From NCBI GenBank assembly GCA_024696725.1, contig JAILGO010000176.1, forward strand, positions 1-14,248: a stretch of 14,248 nt of DNA, in the 5' to 3' direction. Of this stretch, positions 3,818 to 8,337 are shown one piece after another. The notes below the pieces were generated by a model. That model saw nothing but the letters and a program-made list of their open reading frames with translations, was not told where the DNA came from and ran no database searches. How positions within the stretch are numbered: the stretch's first letter is position 1; each line of letters opens with the position of its first letter. The position numbers and the translations under genes are program-made. Origin of the DNA: Eubacterium sp. (GTDB lineage: Bacteria > Bacillota > Clostridia > Oscillospirales > Acutalibacteraceae).

Positions 3818-4018
3818 TTACCTTCTTATTTCGATTACAAGCTGTTCAAGATTAGCATATACCGACTCAACCTCAAAATCAGCGTATTCCGAAATGTCCT
3901 CGCCCTCGATATCGTTAGTTTCAAGGATAATATCGTCCATATCGTTTTCGTCGTCAAAGGCTCTGACGAGAACGTCACCCTGAATCATAACATCGTCGAC
4001 AAACGTCTGTAACGTCAT
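3818..4018 (-). CDS. Small highly acidic hypothetical protein
   Basis: This 66-residue protein is not recognised. It contains 20 Asp/Glu and only 3 Arg with no Lys (about -17 net charge). The negative charges cluster between residues 20 and 50, and the C-terminus (LEQLVIEI) is a likely beta strand. There is no membrane segment or cysteine. Expression is well supported: AAAGGGGGAA lies about 8 bases before the ATG, a near-consensus promoter lies at 4045-4073, and a terminator follows. It is the last gene on the strand of the phage-derived lysis cassette and could be read through from it. Small acidic proteins like this occur in phage and Firmicutes genomes. A DNA-mimic or protein-binding role is possible but is speculation. 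Confidence 0.75.
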   Translation of the reverse strand: MTLQTFVDDVMIQGDVLVRAFDDENDMDDIILETNDIEGEDISEYADFEVESVYANLEQLVIEIRR

Positions 4019-4044
4019 AAGCTATTCCCCCTTTGCTACTTATC

Positions 4045-4073
4045 AATATATATTAAACATATTCTAAAGTCAA
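4045..4073 (-). promoter_or_regulatory. Promoter of the small acidic protein gene
   Basis: On the minus strand, TTGACT (4068-4073) is followed after exactly 17 bases by TATATT (4045-4050), each one mismatch from consensus. It lies just after the endolysin stop codon (4093-4095), so the small gene can be expressed independently of the lysis genes. Confidence 0.75.
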
Positions 4074-4092
4074 GCAAAAAGCAAGGGCAGGG

Positions 4093-4932
4093 CTAAGGTT
4101 TAATCAGCTTTCCCTTTTTCAGAAGGCTGAGAAGCCTTAAGTTCTGCTTAGCAGAGCCGATATAGCCCTTTATTCCGTTAACCGCGGCGATTTTTCTTCT
4201 GTAGGAAAAGCCCGATTTTGCGCCGACGGAGCCAAGCGCGTCGACGAGCGATTTAATGCCGTTTTCGCATCTTTTAAAATACTTTACCACGTTTTCGGGA
4301 TTGATATTTTCCTGCTCAATCGGACGAAGAAAGCCCGAAACGCCCGCAAGACTGTGGCGGACTTTTTTCATTTGTGCTCCGCCCCAGTTCTGGTCATAGG
4401 TAGTAATTGAGCTTTCGTCCTGAACGCCGGTGGCGACGGCTATATGACCGTAAGGCGACTTTCCGTTATAGTACAGTCCCCACACGACGAGGTCTCCCCT
4501 CTTTGCCCTTACGCCGTTCTTATACGGAATTTTTATAAAATGCTTTTTAAGATACGTACCGTCAAAATTATCATAGTAGCAATGTGCGTTACCGACGCTC
4601 TGTGGCTTTATGCCGAGCACCTTGTCTATATAGAGCTTCGCGAGGTCGACGCATTGAACGCCGTAGGTACCGTCGTAGTCGGTACCCTTTCCGAGATATG
4701 CGTTGACGAACTCCTTAAAGCTCATTTTAGCCGCCGCGCCCTGCTCGCCGTCGGGCGTTTCAAGGTTCATAACAGCCGCGAGTCCTGCGGCAAGGAGTCC
4801 GATAACGAAGCCCTTTACAACCGTTTTATCCGAAAAATCAACGCCCGCCTTTATTTCGACGAGAGCGTACGCGGTAACAGCCTGTAAGAAGGTTCTTAAG
4901 GCTCTTTTAAAGGTTTTCTTTGTAAATCTCAT
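4093..4932 (-). CDS. CHAP-domain endolysin with fused holin-like N-terminus
   Basis: This 279-residue protein has three visible regions. Residues 1-57 begin with basic residues, then two hydrophobic stretches (about 11-28 and 38-56, the latter rich in G/A/L/V). They resemble small r1t-type phage holins. Residues 70-205 form a CHAP amidase/endopeptidase domain: catalytic Cys94 in QCVDLAKLY, His163 in YGHIAVATG, and D180/N182 in DQNWGG. Residues 215-279 resemble the C-terminal repeat of clostridial phage lysins (LVDALGSVG then LLKKGKLIKP) and probably bind cell wall. The expected role is peptidoglycan cleavage. The fused N-terminus could anchor the enzyme in the membrane or help it cross. The ATG directly abuts the TGA of the upstream gene and has a GGGAG site, indicating coupled translation. 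The CHAP call is secure; the holin assignment is inferred from pattern. Confidence 0.88.
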   Translation of the reverse strand: MRFTKKTFKRALRTFLQAVTAYALVEIKAGVDFSDKTVVKGFVIGLLAAGLAAVMNLETPDGEQGAAAKMSFKEFVNAYLGKGTDYDGTYGVQCVDLAKLYIDKVLGIKPQSVGNAHCYYDNFDGTYLKKHFIKIPYKNGVRAKRGDLVVWGLYYNGKSPYGHIAVATGVQDESSITTYDQNWGGAQMKKVRHSLAGVSGFLRPIEQENINPENVVKYFKRCENGIKSLVDALGSVGAKSGFSYRRKIAAVNGIKGYIGSAKQNLRLLSLLKKGKLIKP

Positions 4933-5172
4933 TCAGTATCTCCCTTCGAGGTCGTCTATTCTGTGGTCGGCTACCTTCTGTCCCTGCTCAAGAAGCGCCG
5001 TTTTTTCCTCAAGCGCGTAGGTGCGCTCAATGAGGTTATTATGCTTATCAACCTTTTTTTCAAGCTGCTCGAGTCTGTAATCGGACAGTTTCGAATTAAT
5101 AAGCACGCCCGCAAGCGAGCCGGTAGCGCTTCCGCAAAGACCTATAAGCGCAACTAATATTTCACTTCTCAT
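4933..5172 (-). CDS. XhlA/holin-like membrane and coiled-coil phage protein
   Basis: This 79-residue protein has one hydrophobic segment (about residues 5-25, ALIGLCGSATGSLAGVLI) followed by a charged, heptad-like coiled coil (about 30-77) ending VADHRIDDLEGRY. This is the layout of the XhlA/haemolysin-like or small holin-associated proteins found between tail-fibre and endolysin genes in Firmicutes prophages. A longer reading could start upstream at 5223, but it would overlap the fibre gene. The ATG at 5170-5172 lies 4 bases after the fibre stop codon and is served by AAGGTG (5180-5185), so it is preferred. It probably inserts in the cytoplasmic membrane and assists lysis. Its stop codon abuts the endolysin start. 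Confidence 0.8.
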   Translation of the reverse strand: MRSEILVALIGLCGSATGSLAGVLINSKLSDYRLEQLEKKVDKHNNLIERTYALEEKTALLEQGQKVADHRIDDLEGRY

Positions 5173-5176
5173 TTCG

Positions 5177-6427
5177 TTACACCTTCGTATAGCGCACGGT
5201 AACGAAGCCGCTCCTGTTATCAAATTTAAAGTCGCCCGTAGAACCGCAGTTACCGCTTACGCTCAGCATTTTCGTATCGGTATTTTCGGGGATAATAACG
5301 TAGCAGTTCAGGTTGTTATACGCGTTTACCTGAGGTGAAAATCTATAGTCGGTATTCATAAAGAGGATATCCTCCTCGCCGATAACCGCAGTATAAACGA
5401 AGCCCTCGGCGGAAATTATTTTATCCGCAAAGGAAATATCCTGTTCCCAGTAAGCGTCCGGGTCAAAGGTGAACGAATAGGTTCTCTCATAGATTGTTTT
5501 ACCGTCAAGCCATTTCCCGACAGAGTGCTCGTAAGTGCTGTAAACGTGTCCGGCGTTAGCTGTTCTTCCGAGAGCGAGTACGCTTGAAAAGCAAAAATCC
5601 GACGCGAAGAGCATATAAAAGCTGAGTCCGTTATACAGCATAACCGTATCGTGCTGTAAAAGCGTACTGTCCGGAAGGCGCATACCGTGAGTCTTTATAT
5701 AGATTTCGTTTTCCGTCTTGTCAACGCTGAAAACGCTGCCTGCGGGAATCACGGCGTTTAACGAAGAGTGAGAGACCGCGGAGGAGATATCTCCGCCCGA
5801 AGCAATAAGCTCGGCAAGGCGTAAGCTGTCGCTGTAATCGCGGAAAATCACCGCCTCGTTAAGAAGCCTTACGCTTATATCGTTTTCGGCGATATAAAGT
5901 CCCGGCTGCGCGAGGTCAGCCCAGCCGCCTTCGGTAAAGGAAGAAAGCGAGAGGGAGGTAACCGAAACAGGAATAAACTCGCTTTCGCCCTTATCTCCCT
6001 TCTCACCCTTCAGCTCTCCGTTTTCATACGCCGTATAGACCGTATCCGCCTTATTTGCCGCGGTATCGCATCTTGCGATTATCCGTGAATAGACGTCGGG
6101 CTCGGGCTCGGAGGGAGTATCGCCCTCACAATAGCCCGAAGGGATAACGTTTACATATACCTTATTCGCGGTAATTCTGTCGCCGCAGAAGCAGGAAACG
6201 GAAAAACGTCCCCCGCTAATCACCTCCCACGGAACCTCACAGCGTCCGTTTTCGTCAAGAACGGTGTTATATGCCGCGCCGTCTTTTTTAAAGACTGCGG
6301 TTATAATACCCGTCCATTCAGAAGTGAAGGTAAAGCAGGCGTAAAGATAATTTCTCGAATCGGCTACTACCTTATTACTGTCGCTTCGCGTAATAATCTG
6401 GTTTTCGACATTGAAGCTAATGTCCAT
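5177..6427 (-). CDS. Phage tail-fibre / receptor-binding-like protein
   Basis: This 416-residue protein looks like a modular phage fibre. Residues 1-96 form a beta-rich N-terminal domain (opening MDISFNVENQIITR) of the kind found at the start of clostridial baseplate or fibre proteins. A Pro/Glu hinge (TPSEPEPD, about 104-111), a short helical stretch (112-136) and a collagen-like GEKGDKGE (141-148) follow. The long beta-rich C-terminal half contains KWLDGKTIYERT (305-316), a motif type common in tail-fibre C-termini, and ends in VRYTKV. Such proteins attach a phage tail to the cell surface. Here no tail, baseplate or capsid gene is nearby, so its partner is unclear. The start is well supported by TAGGAGG, about 9 bases before the ATG. 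It is the first gene of the cassette, behind a leader hairpin. Confidence 0.8.
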   Translation of the reverse strand: MDISFNVENQIITRSDSNKVVADSRNYLYACFTFTSEWTGIITAVFKKDGAAYNTVLDENGRCEVPWEVISGGRFSVSCFCGDRITANKVYVNVIPSGYCEGDTPSEPEPDVYSRIIARCDTAANKADTVYTAYENGELKGEKGDKGESEFIPVSVTSLSLSSFTEGGWADLAQPGLYIAENDISVRLLNEAVIFRDYSDSLRLAELIASGGDISSAVSHSSLNAVIPAGSVFSVDKTENEIYIKTHGMRLPDSTLLQHDTVMLYNGLSFYMLFASDFCFSSVLALGRTANAGHVYSTYEHSVGKWLDGKTIYERTYSFTFDPDAYWEQDISFADKIISAEGFVYTAVIGEEDILFMNTDYRFSPQVNAYNNLNCYVIIPENTDTKMLSVSGNCGSTGDFKFDNRSGFVTVRYTKV

Positions 6428-6449
6428 ATTAAAACCTCCTAAAAAATAT

Positions 6450-6486
6450 AAAGCCTTTACCGCAGCGCCATTACGGTAAAAGCTTT
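6450..6486 (-). promoter_or_regulatory. Terminator-like hairpin in the leader of the phage cassette
   Basis: On the minus strand, AAAGCTTTTACCG and CGGTAAAGGCTTT form a 13-bp stem with a single G-U wobble and an 11-base loop, followed by ATATTTTTT and then the AGGAGG of the fibre gene. On the plus strand the same pair is a C-A mismatch, so the structure fits minus-strand RNA. It could be an attenuator, or the terminator of a lost upstream gene. Leader bases 6496-6502 (TGAAGCC) could pair with the 3' arm (6449-6455) as an alternative fold. Confidence 0.6.
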
Positions 6487-6510
6487 TTGCCCTTCGGCTT
6501 CAGCACCCTT

Positions 6511-6539
6511 ATATTAGGAGCGTAAAACACGTCGGTCAA
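6511..6539 (-). promoter_or_regulatory. Candidate promoter of the phage cassette
   Basis: On the minus strand, TTGACC (6534-6539) is followed after 17 bases by TAATAT (6511-6516). The -35 is 5 of 6 and the -10 is 4 of 6. Transcription from here would give a leader of about 75 bases that includes the 6450-6486 hairpin. Confidence 0.45.
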
Positions 6540-6619
6540 TATAATACGGACTTAATTTACAAAATATGCTAAACAGAGACTGAATTATACATAATAATTA
6601 ACGAAAATATATTTTTTTA

Positions 6620-6678: not shown

Positions 6679-8337
6679 ATGGATTATTTAAAGCTTTCGG
6701 AGCTGCTGTTTCCGAACATCGACAAAACGCCGGACTATTACGAAAACCTTTATCCCGAAAGACAGCTTAAGGAGGGAGCGCGCGTTACGCGTTTTGCTCC
6801 GAGTCCGACGGGCTTCCTTCACTTCGGTAACCTTTTTACCTGTCTTGTATCTTATAAAACCGCCGAAACCACGAACGGCGTGTTTTACGTTCGTGTTGAG
6901 GACACGGACAGTAAGCGTAAGGTAGAGGGCGCTATCGAGGTAATGCTTAAGGGACTTTCCGTTTACGGAATCGTTCCCGACGAGGGCGTTATCGGCGAGA
7001 ATACCGAAAAGGGAGAATACGGTCCCTACTATCAGAGCAACCGTAAGGACATTTATCAGGCTTACGCTAAATCGCTCGTTATTCAGGGACTCGCCTACCC
7101 CTGCTTTATGACTCCCGACGAGCTTGACGAAATCCGCTCGGCTCAGGAAAACGAGAGCATTAAGGGTATATGGGGAAAATGGGCGAAGCACCGCGATTTA
7201 AGCTATGAGGAAATCGAACGGCGCATTAACGCGGGCGAGCTGTGGACTCTCCGTCTCAGGTCGACGGGAACTCCCGAGGGAAAATGCTTCTTCGACGATA
7301 TGATCAAGGGAAAAATCGAAATGCCCGAAAACGTTCAGGACGTCGTAATTCTTAAATCCGACGGAATACCGACATATCACTTCGCTCACGCGGTCGACGA
7401 CCATCTTATGAGAACAACTCACGTTGTAAGAGGCGACGAATGGATATCCTCGACTCCGATTCACCTTCAGCTCTTCAGGGTACTCGGCTTCAAGCCGCCG
7501 AAGTACGCGCATGTTGCGCCGATTATGAAAGAGGAAAACGGCGGAAAGCGCAAGCTCTCAAAGCGTAAGGACCCCGAAGCCGCGGTAACCTATTACGCCG
7601 AGGAGGGATATCCGAGCGAAAGCGTTAACGAGTATATGCTCACTCTTGCGAATTCAAACTTTGAGGACTGGCGCAGAATGAACAAGACCGAGAGTCTTGA
7701 AAAATTCCCCTTCAACCTAAAAAAGATGAGCGTATCGGGCGCGCTGTTCGATATGGCGAAGCTCAGCGACGTCAGTAAGAACGTAATCAGCACGATGTCC
7801 GCTCAGAAGGTATTTGAGCTTTCTTACGAATGGGCGAAGGAATATAACGCAGAGCTTGCGGCGCTTTATGAAAAGGACAAGGAAAGAGCCGCGGCGATAC
7901 TCAATATTGACCGTGAAAACAAGAAGCCGCGTAAGGATATTGCGAAATGGAGCGATATTCCCGATTACATCAGCTATATGTACGACGAAACCTTTAAGCC
8001 GTGCTACGAGCTTACGGGAAACGCAACGCCCGCGCTTGCGGTTAAAGTGCTTGAAAAATACATTGACACGGTTAACCTCAGCGACGACAAGGACGCCTGG
8101 TTCTCAAGAATCAAGGATATGTGCGAAGGCGTAGGCTGTACTCCGAACGTAAAGGATTACAAGTCTGAGCCCGAAAAATTCGCAGGTCACGTCGGCGACG
8201 TATCGACGGTAATCCGCGTTGCGCTGACAGGCAGAACGAACACGCCCGACCTTTATTCAATAACCGCGCTTCTCGGTGCGGAAACGGTAAAACAAAGACT
8301 TACGGACGCGCTTAAGCATTACAGGGAGGAAGCATAA
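6679..8337 (+). CDS. gltX: Glutamyl-tRNA synthetase, long Clostridia type
   Basis: This class I synthetase ligates glutamate to tRNA in the cytoplasm. The hallmark RFAPSPTG (38-45) is followed by the HIGH-equivalent HFGN (48-51). Other family features are RVEDTD (72-77), the tRNA-acceptor region around [12 protein letters not shown] (231-242), VVRGDEW (249-255) and the KMSKS-equivalent KLSKR (292-296). At 552 residues it is longer than the usual GluRS of about 470-490, with an N-terminal extension of some 35 residues before the catalytic motif and a longer C-terminal half. This matches a branch seen in gut Clostridia. The ATG is preceded by AGGTGAG. Its stop overlaps the glnS start by one base (TAATG), which indicates translational coupling. 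Presence of glnS suggests it may charge only tRNA-Glu, but specificity cannot be read from these motifs. Confidence 0.93.

Follow-up and report, generated by a model that had tools for sequence, protein, structure and literature searches.

A phage-type fibre, XhlA-like and endolysin operon divergent from gltX in a Eubacterium species, and related lysis cassettes in its genus

The operon beside gltX and its three proteins

The window, i.e., the whole analyzed stretch of 14,248 nucleotides, is contig JAILGO010000176.1 of the assembly GCA_024696725.1 from Eubacterium sp. (Acutalibacteraceae; genome G000 below). It carries an intact three-gene operon, located entirely on the minus strand and divergent from gltX, encoding a fibre-like protein, an XhlA-like membrane protein and an endolysin (Table 1). 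The open reading frame (ORF) coordinates bore out the tight spacing reported in a first-pass annotation of the window, with 4 bases between the fibre and the XhlA-like genes and 0 bases between the latter and the lysin gene, and all three frames were complete, as it had claimed. Its remarks on host-like base composition and on the lack of capsid, terminase, portal, integrase and tail-tube genes also held: the guanine–cytosine content of the three genes was 0.48–0.49 vs. 0.478 for the window, and no phage structural gene was recognized there. The bounding promoter and terminator were likewise found as predicted sites.

Table 1. Features of the operon and its surroundings in the window (aa, amino acids).
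Feature	Position	Strand	Description
Fibre-like gene	6427-5177	-	416 aa ORF; N-terminal phage-type domain, variable C-terminal part
XhlA-like gene	5172-4933	-	79 aa from ATG; TTG start further upstream; membrane protein
Endolysin gene	4932-4093	-	279 aa; holin-like N-terminal part, CHAP peptidase, C-terminal part ending LLKKGKLIKP
66-aa ORF	4018-3818	-	Acidic; own promoter-like site 4073-4045
gltX	6679-8337	+	Conserved divergent neighbour of the operon
Promoter-like site of the operon	6539-6511	-	TTGACC-17-TAATAT, consensus match; predicted
Leader hairpin	6487-6449	-	14 pairs, loop ATGGCGC, T-rich run after; proposed attenuator or regulator site
Terminator-like hairpin	3804-3787	-	Lies after the 66-aa ORF

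The N-terminal part of the fibre-like protein (residues 3–123) matched phrog_19695 in PHROGs with an E-value of 5.4e-28, and among phage records only Butyrivibrio phage Ceridwen had a related N-terminal region (36.5% over fibre residues 1–121). The predicted model contains an N-terminal beta domain with a predicted local distance difference test score (pLDDT) of at least 90 in every block of residues 1–100, the whole model reaching a pLDDT of 69.5 and a predicted template modelling score of 0.33. The fold predicted for the N-terminal part matched 55 viral models at E ≤0.001, and 2 of the 50 listed were named tail fiber. By sequence and predicted fold, phage proteins also have this domain. No match at E 0.001 or better was found among PDB structures, and likeness of the whole fibre to a solved structure was set aside as unconvincing. 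The C-terminal part of the fibre differs between species.

The second protein scored 18.6 bits against the Pfam family XhlA (PF10779), below the curated cut-off of 34.7, hence the name XhlA-like only; its match to phrog_1863 had an E-value of 1.2e-13.

The lysin carries a CHAP domain above the Pfam cut-off (PF05257, E 3.9e-10), matches the endolysin family phrog_8781 (E 3.9e-28) and resembles solved lysins in the PDB, e.g., 6ist; residues C94, H163 and N182 are invariant across five aligned lysins. It qualifies as a predicted peptidoglycan hydrolase of the endolysin type. The first-pass annotation had rightly called it a CHAP gene and had missed its holin-like segment: the first 65 residues weakly matched the holin family phrog_443 (E 0.0046) and include one hydrophobic stretch (residues 36–60). 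No signal peptide was recognized on reading the lysin sequence. In other genomes of the genus the holin-like part is often a separate gene before the lysin. Holin–lysin fusions also occur at the phage-like loci G022:C77 and G014:C19, so such a fusion does not by itself point to domestication.

Another CHAP lysin of the own genome, with an SH3-like end, stands alone without XhlA or holin (G000:C39 6874-8376, L231), behind a gene that matches DUF6548 weakly. Several relatives have comparable lone CHAP genes (L305 in G030, L246, L247, L248, L249).

The span 3818..6540, originally delimited as the cassette, covers the three genes and, in addition, the separate 66-aa ORF. The latter had no family match in Pfam, PHROGs, NCBIfam or PADLOC and no counterpart in the 40 gltX-region loci compared, and it probably lies outside the operon. 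A defence system was rejected as a candidate function, as none of four proteins matched PADLOC at E 0.01. Among the neighbouring genes, those for PIG-L, GDSL lipase, metallophosphoesterase and ABC-2 permease were identified by Pfam; gltX, glnS, typA, hemW and the remaining neighbours were named by reading and conservation in relatives. Across the window there were 11 promoter-like sites vs. 4.1 in shuffled sequences and 9 terminator-like sites vs. 3.9.

The gltX site and its leader hairpin in the genus

The gltX region of the window was compared with its counterparts in 39 other genomes of the genus, three with fewer than 150 bases before gltX being set aside. The block stood divergent from gltX in 4 of the 37 testable genomes (G000, G019, G030 and G036), which represent four species. 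For the remaining gltX-bearing genomes of the genus, assessed from profile matches alone, no fibre or lysin match stood beside gltX. The genes beyond the lysin differ among the four. It had been proposed that the block sits, free of a prophage, between a deacetylase gene and gltX. The gltX side of this setting was confirmed in the four species, with no complete prophage seen at gltX among the loci examined; the deacetylase gene adjoined the block in none of three relatives, so the setting between both genes is not a conserved one. No structural, packaging, integrase or capsid genes were recognized in the flanks of the G030 and G036 blocks, the G019 flank being short. Beyond the block of G030 lies a gene for a repeat-rich protein of at least 2346 aa (G030:C98 20000-29577, L355), and a large repeat protein is also encoded near gltX in G044 (L081), where the block is absent.

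A fibre model search of 80 genomes of the genus matched nine: the four with the gltX-site block and G005, G216, G022, G026 and G032. In G005 and G216 the fibre gene lies at places other than gltX; the three genes of G005 are at a contig end, adjoining a glycosyltransferase-like gene. The contig G022:C77 reads by eye as a prophage: it has genes for packaging and tail, a fibre domain and a lysin. This call and that for G013:C16 come from ORF reading alone.

All four gltX-site leaders share one layout: TTGAC, 17–18 bases, TAAnnT, and then the hairpin, a T-rich run and a ribosome site. Within the seven-base loop, TGGCGC is invariant in all four. The stem covaries: across the four sequences both partners differ in 9 of the 14 pairs, 94.6% of cells are paired, and the covariation score was reached by none of 500 shuffles. 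In the 80 genomes, a covariance model of the hairpin scored 46–49 bits at exactly the four gltX-site loci and nowhere else above 46. The hairpin may act as an attenuator.

Wider identities of the hairpin were tried and rejected. As a general motif it gave 12 weaker matches only (at most 32 bits; 5 of the 12 inspected), the best, in G032, being a terminator-like hairpin between other genes; the G058 match (31 bits) had a different loop and the rest of the inspected ones looked unrelated. No Rfam family matched the leader at the gathering score, 12 sources giving tRNAs only. TGGCGC occurred within 350 bases upstream of 2 of 45 XhlA matches, both being one G001 locus inside a coding sequence. Against 30 viral or prophage loci, the model found only two weak matches of 17–19 bits.

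Fibre-less cassettes at argC and dnaJ, and the history of the modules

A lysin search of 60 genomes of the genus (45 matched) and of a wider contig collection (43 loci) led to argC. Among 50 argC loci, 42 had at least 1 kb upstream; eight were too short, the own genome (368 bases) included. Directly divergent from argC, a fibre-less lysis cassette was found in 27 of the 42 testable genomes, and in 2 of 42 a holin and a lysin lay 2–3 kb away. An XhlA match was present in 25 of the 27 cassettes, its open frame beginning 89–309 bases from argC, and in 19 of those with XhlA a recognized holin lay between XhlA and the lysin or was fused to the latter; G005 and G031 had the lysin only. By profile, the argC lysins were of the CHAP (15), C39 (9) and M23 (2) types, and in G025 only the wall-binding part was recognized. 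The C39-type protein of G022 has 562 aa and is lipoprotein-like, with a holin 2.4 kb off. In Pfam, the C39-type lysin of G036 scored above and that of G047 below the cut-off, and one SPP1 holin and one M23 peptidase exceeded theirs. The argC-site holins were also of two types, SPP1 and another. Such swapping of lysin and holin types agrees with a function that persists as its components are replaced.

No argC cassette was present in the three gltX-site species that could be assessed. Two further genomes carry a cassette behind dnaJ, and one of them, G004, matches Eubacterium coprostanoligenes ATCC 51222. Across the order, XhlA matches were found in 31 of 147 genomes, two of the 31 from this genus, and none of the 28 other XhlA loci inspected had argC within 1.5 kb. 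Read by eye, XhlA-type genes of other genera lie with a lysin beside ribosomal protein genes in G177 (L315) and near typA in G169 (L314) and G183 (L320).

In 15 of the 25 argC-site loci scanned, the lysin is followed at up to about 3 kb by a tRNA-Thr gene, in most cases accompanied by tRNA-Asp, and contig ends cut short some of the remaining ten; this hints at an old tRNA-site integration. The cassette of G011 shares 78% DNA identity over 1193 bases with the argC cassette of G025, from about 55 bases upstream of XhlA onwards. It lies away from argC, but the tRNA pair beside it is the same as in G025, in inverted orientation. A move of the cassette by itself was not retained as an explanation, since a chromosomal rearrangement accounts for this inverted arrangement equally well. 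As separate observations, TCTCAG, often in a short stem, recurs between the promoter and XhlA in many argC-site leaders (e.g., L251, L252, L254, L256 and L257), with no clear common fold, and in G032, G026 and G029 (L289, L290, L291) a helix-turn-helix-like gene of 81–83 aa replaces the cassette divergent from argC.

On a gltX plus glnS tree of 40 genomes, presence of the argC cassette required three changes vs. a shuffled mean of 9.8, and the cassette occurred on both deep branches. Few changes and both deep branches make it plausible that the argC cassette is ancestral and was lost in some lineages. The four gltX-site species formed one supported group of five with G001, whose gltX site lacks the block; a single origin is conceivable, but only 6% of the bootstrap trees joined the four alone. 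The comparison with viral ORFs covered 822 ORFs from phage loci. In an XhlA tree of 88 rows and 67 columns (bootstrap not settled), 20 of the 25 argC-site rows fell in one group and five in another. The XhlA rows of G000 and G030 grouped with three viral rows and that of G036 with one, G019 having no settled placement. It looks as if site and leader were shared while the protein modules were swapped with phages or captured repeatedly.

The ratio of nonsynonymous to synonymous change (omega, dN/dS), obtained with a simple NG86 script and with dS near saturation, was 0.13–0.41 for the fibre N-terminal part, 0.15–0.42 for XhlA (G030 excluded), 0.13–0.52 for the lysin and 0.06–0.11 for gltX. The lysin value was highest against G036, whose catalytic domain is of another type. 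The dN/dS comparison suggested with the first-pass annotation thus gave omega below 1 for all three genes, and selection on the cassette inside the host is likely, not proven. With the intact block at gltX in four species and the covarying hairpin, these values agree with the maintenance which that annotation had supposed.

A probable resident lysis function, its rivals and known systems

We lean towards the view that the bacterium has retained the phage-derived lysis operon for lysis or release, as a gated function resident in its genome. The intact gene order, the gltX site in four species, the covarying leader and the argC cassettes found in much of the genus all argue for it. Of the three readings offered at first, the domesticated lysis and adhesion module is the best. 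Transcription would begin near position 6510 and be stopped or held at the leader hairpin until a cue or a loop-binding factor let it through. XhlA and the holin segment would then open the membrane, the CHAP enzyme would cut the peptidoglycan, and some cells would lyse or leak and release their contents; no cargo gene was recognized beside the block. In the weakest step, the fibre, once outside, would bind a target or surface via its variable C-terminal part.

Several observations weigh against a resident function. The gltX-site XhlA proteins are not one clade, and 13 of the 42 argC loci had no cassette by profile search. G019 carries a further XhlA–holin–lysin set beside phage-like ORFs and G005 combines a lysin at argC with a fibre block elsewhere, so a single cassette per genome does not hold generally. 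The dS values of 0.8–3 are near saturation and for the lysin exceed those of gltX; hence the apparent selection may partly be phage history. In the viral contig L120 a different hairpin precedes the fibre gene at the corresponding position, which means that the leader layout may come from phages, and the 32-bit hairpin of G032, at an unrelated gene, also has TGGCGC in its loop.

Repeated phage capture and hot-spot remnants are serious rivals. According to the latter, phages would repeatedly enter near argC, at the tRNA genes, and gltX, decay and leave their distal lysis end, so that the selection on the genes would be mostly phage history. The cassette gene order, which is that of a phage distal end, the apparent prophage of G022 with its fibre domain and lysin, the tRNA genes near the argC-site lysins and the grouping of gltX-site XhlA proteins with different viral rows agree with such a course. 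We nevertheless regard it as the less likely course: against it stand the compact, intact cassettes with repeated spacing at 27 of 42 argC loci, the placing of most argC-site XhlA proteins in one group and the covarying leader common to the gltX-site blocks, and no flanking integrase or capsid genes were recognized beside the latter. The recent prophage remnant proposed in the first-pass annotation is weakened in the same way, retaining the phage-like XhlA groupings in its favour against the lack of a complete prophage at the gltX loci examined and the persistence of related argC cassettes in much of the genus.

Improbable, in our opinion, is a secreted weapon or surface tool, in which fibre and lysin would act on other cells and XhlA and the holin part would serve export only. 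The variable fibre C-terminus and the swapped lysin types would suit changing targets, and a lysin with no signal peptide recognized on reading would need the holin route, but most related cassettes have no fibre and no immunity gene was recognized. A role as lysis and fibre genes for a gene-transfer agent or a dispersed phage-like particle, one of the readings put forward initially, is very improbable. The fibre does keep an N-terminal domain that phage tail proteins probably have as well, but a search of the five block-bearing genomes for three structural families (two of the genomes being 68–73% complete) found the HK97 capsid only in G030 and TerL PF03354 and the tape measure PF10145 in none. 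The own genome, 93% complete, yielded none of the three (HK97 capsid, PF05065), so the orphan head or tail modules sought there did not turn up with these families.

A broader proposal extends the resident function to a prophage-independent lysis or release system across this genus of Clostridia from gut and rumen, with XhlA–holin–lysin operons beside argC, dnaJ and gltX. The lysin and holin would be exchanged with phages like cartridges, the site, order and gating leader would stay constant, and one branch would have added a fibre for aiming or tethering. We put it forward only tentatively. If true, a large group of rumen and gut bacteria, for the most part uncultured, has a built-in regulated lysis or release operon, annotation would misfile such operons as prophage debris, and controlled lysis would influence how these communities release enzymes and vesicles, cross-feed and shed DNA. 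A named strain of the same genus, E. coprostanoligenes ATCC 51222, has the dnaJ cassette, which makes the idea open to testing in a real organism.

Among the closest known systems are the PBSX-type XhlA–holin–endolysin lysis modules of Firmicutes prophages. The operon shares with them gene content and order, the fibre gene upstream and the lysin families, and differs from them in that no surrounding phage genes were recognized and in having its own promoter-like site, a conserved leader hairpin and a fixed place at gltX or argC. No account of a solitary lysis cassette at argC or gltX turned up among the records listed in searches of the open-licence PMC literature. Type 10 secretion systems are described as a holin plus an endolysin (PMC13284979, PMC9527704). 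The likeness, drawn from the genes alone, is a holin and a peptidoglycan hydrolase of phage origin that stand outside any prophage, the holin part being weak in the window; as differences, no cargo gene was recognized alongside, and XhlA and a fibre are present. TcdE of Clostridioides difficile is likewise a holin of phage origin retained in a clostridial chromosome, with an endolysin fragment and an adjacent toxin gene at its locus, whereas the lysin of the window looks intact and no toxin gene was recognized (PMC12150058, PMC9527704). For the E. coli cryptic prophage DLP12, it has similarly been proposed that the host retains the lysis operon to control its cell wall and vesicles (PMC7918800). 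DLP12 is a recognizable cryptic prophage of a Gram-negative host, whereas nothing else of phage origin was recognized here and the cassettes recur genus-wide.

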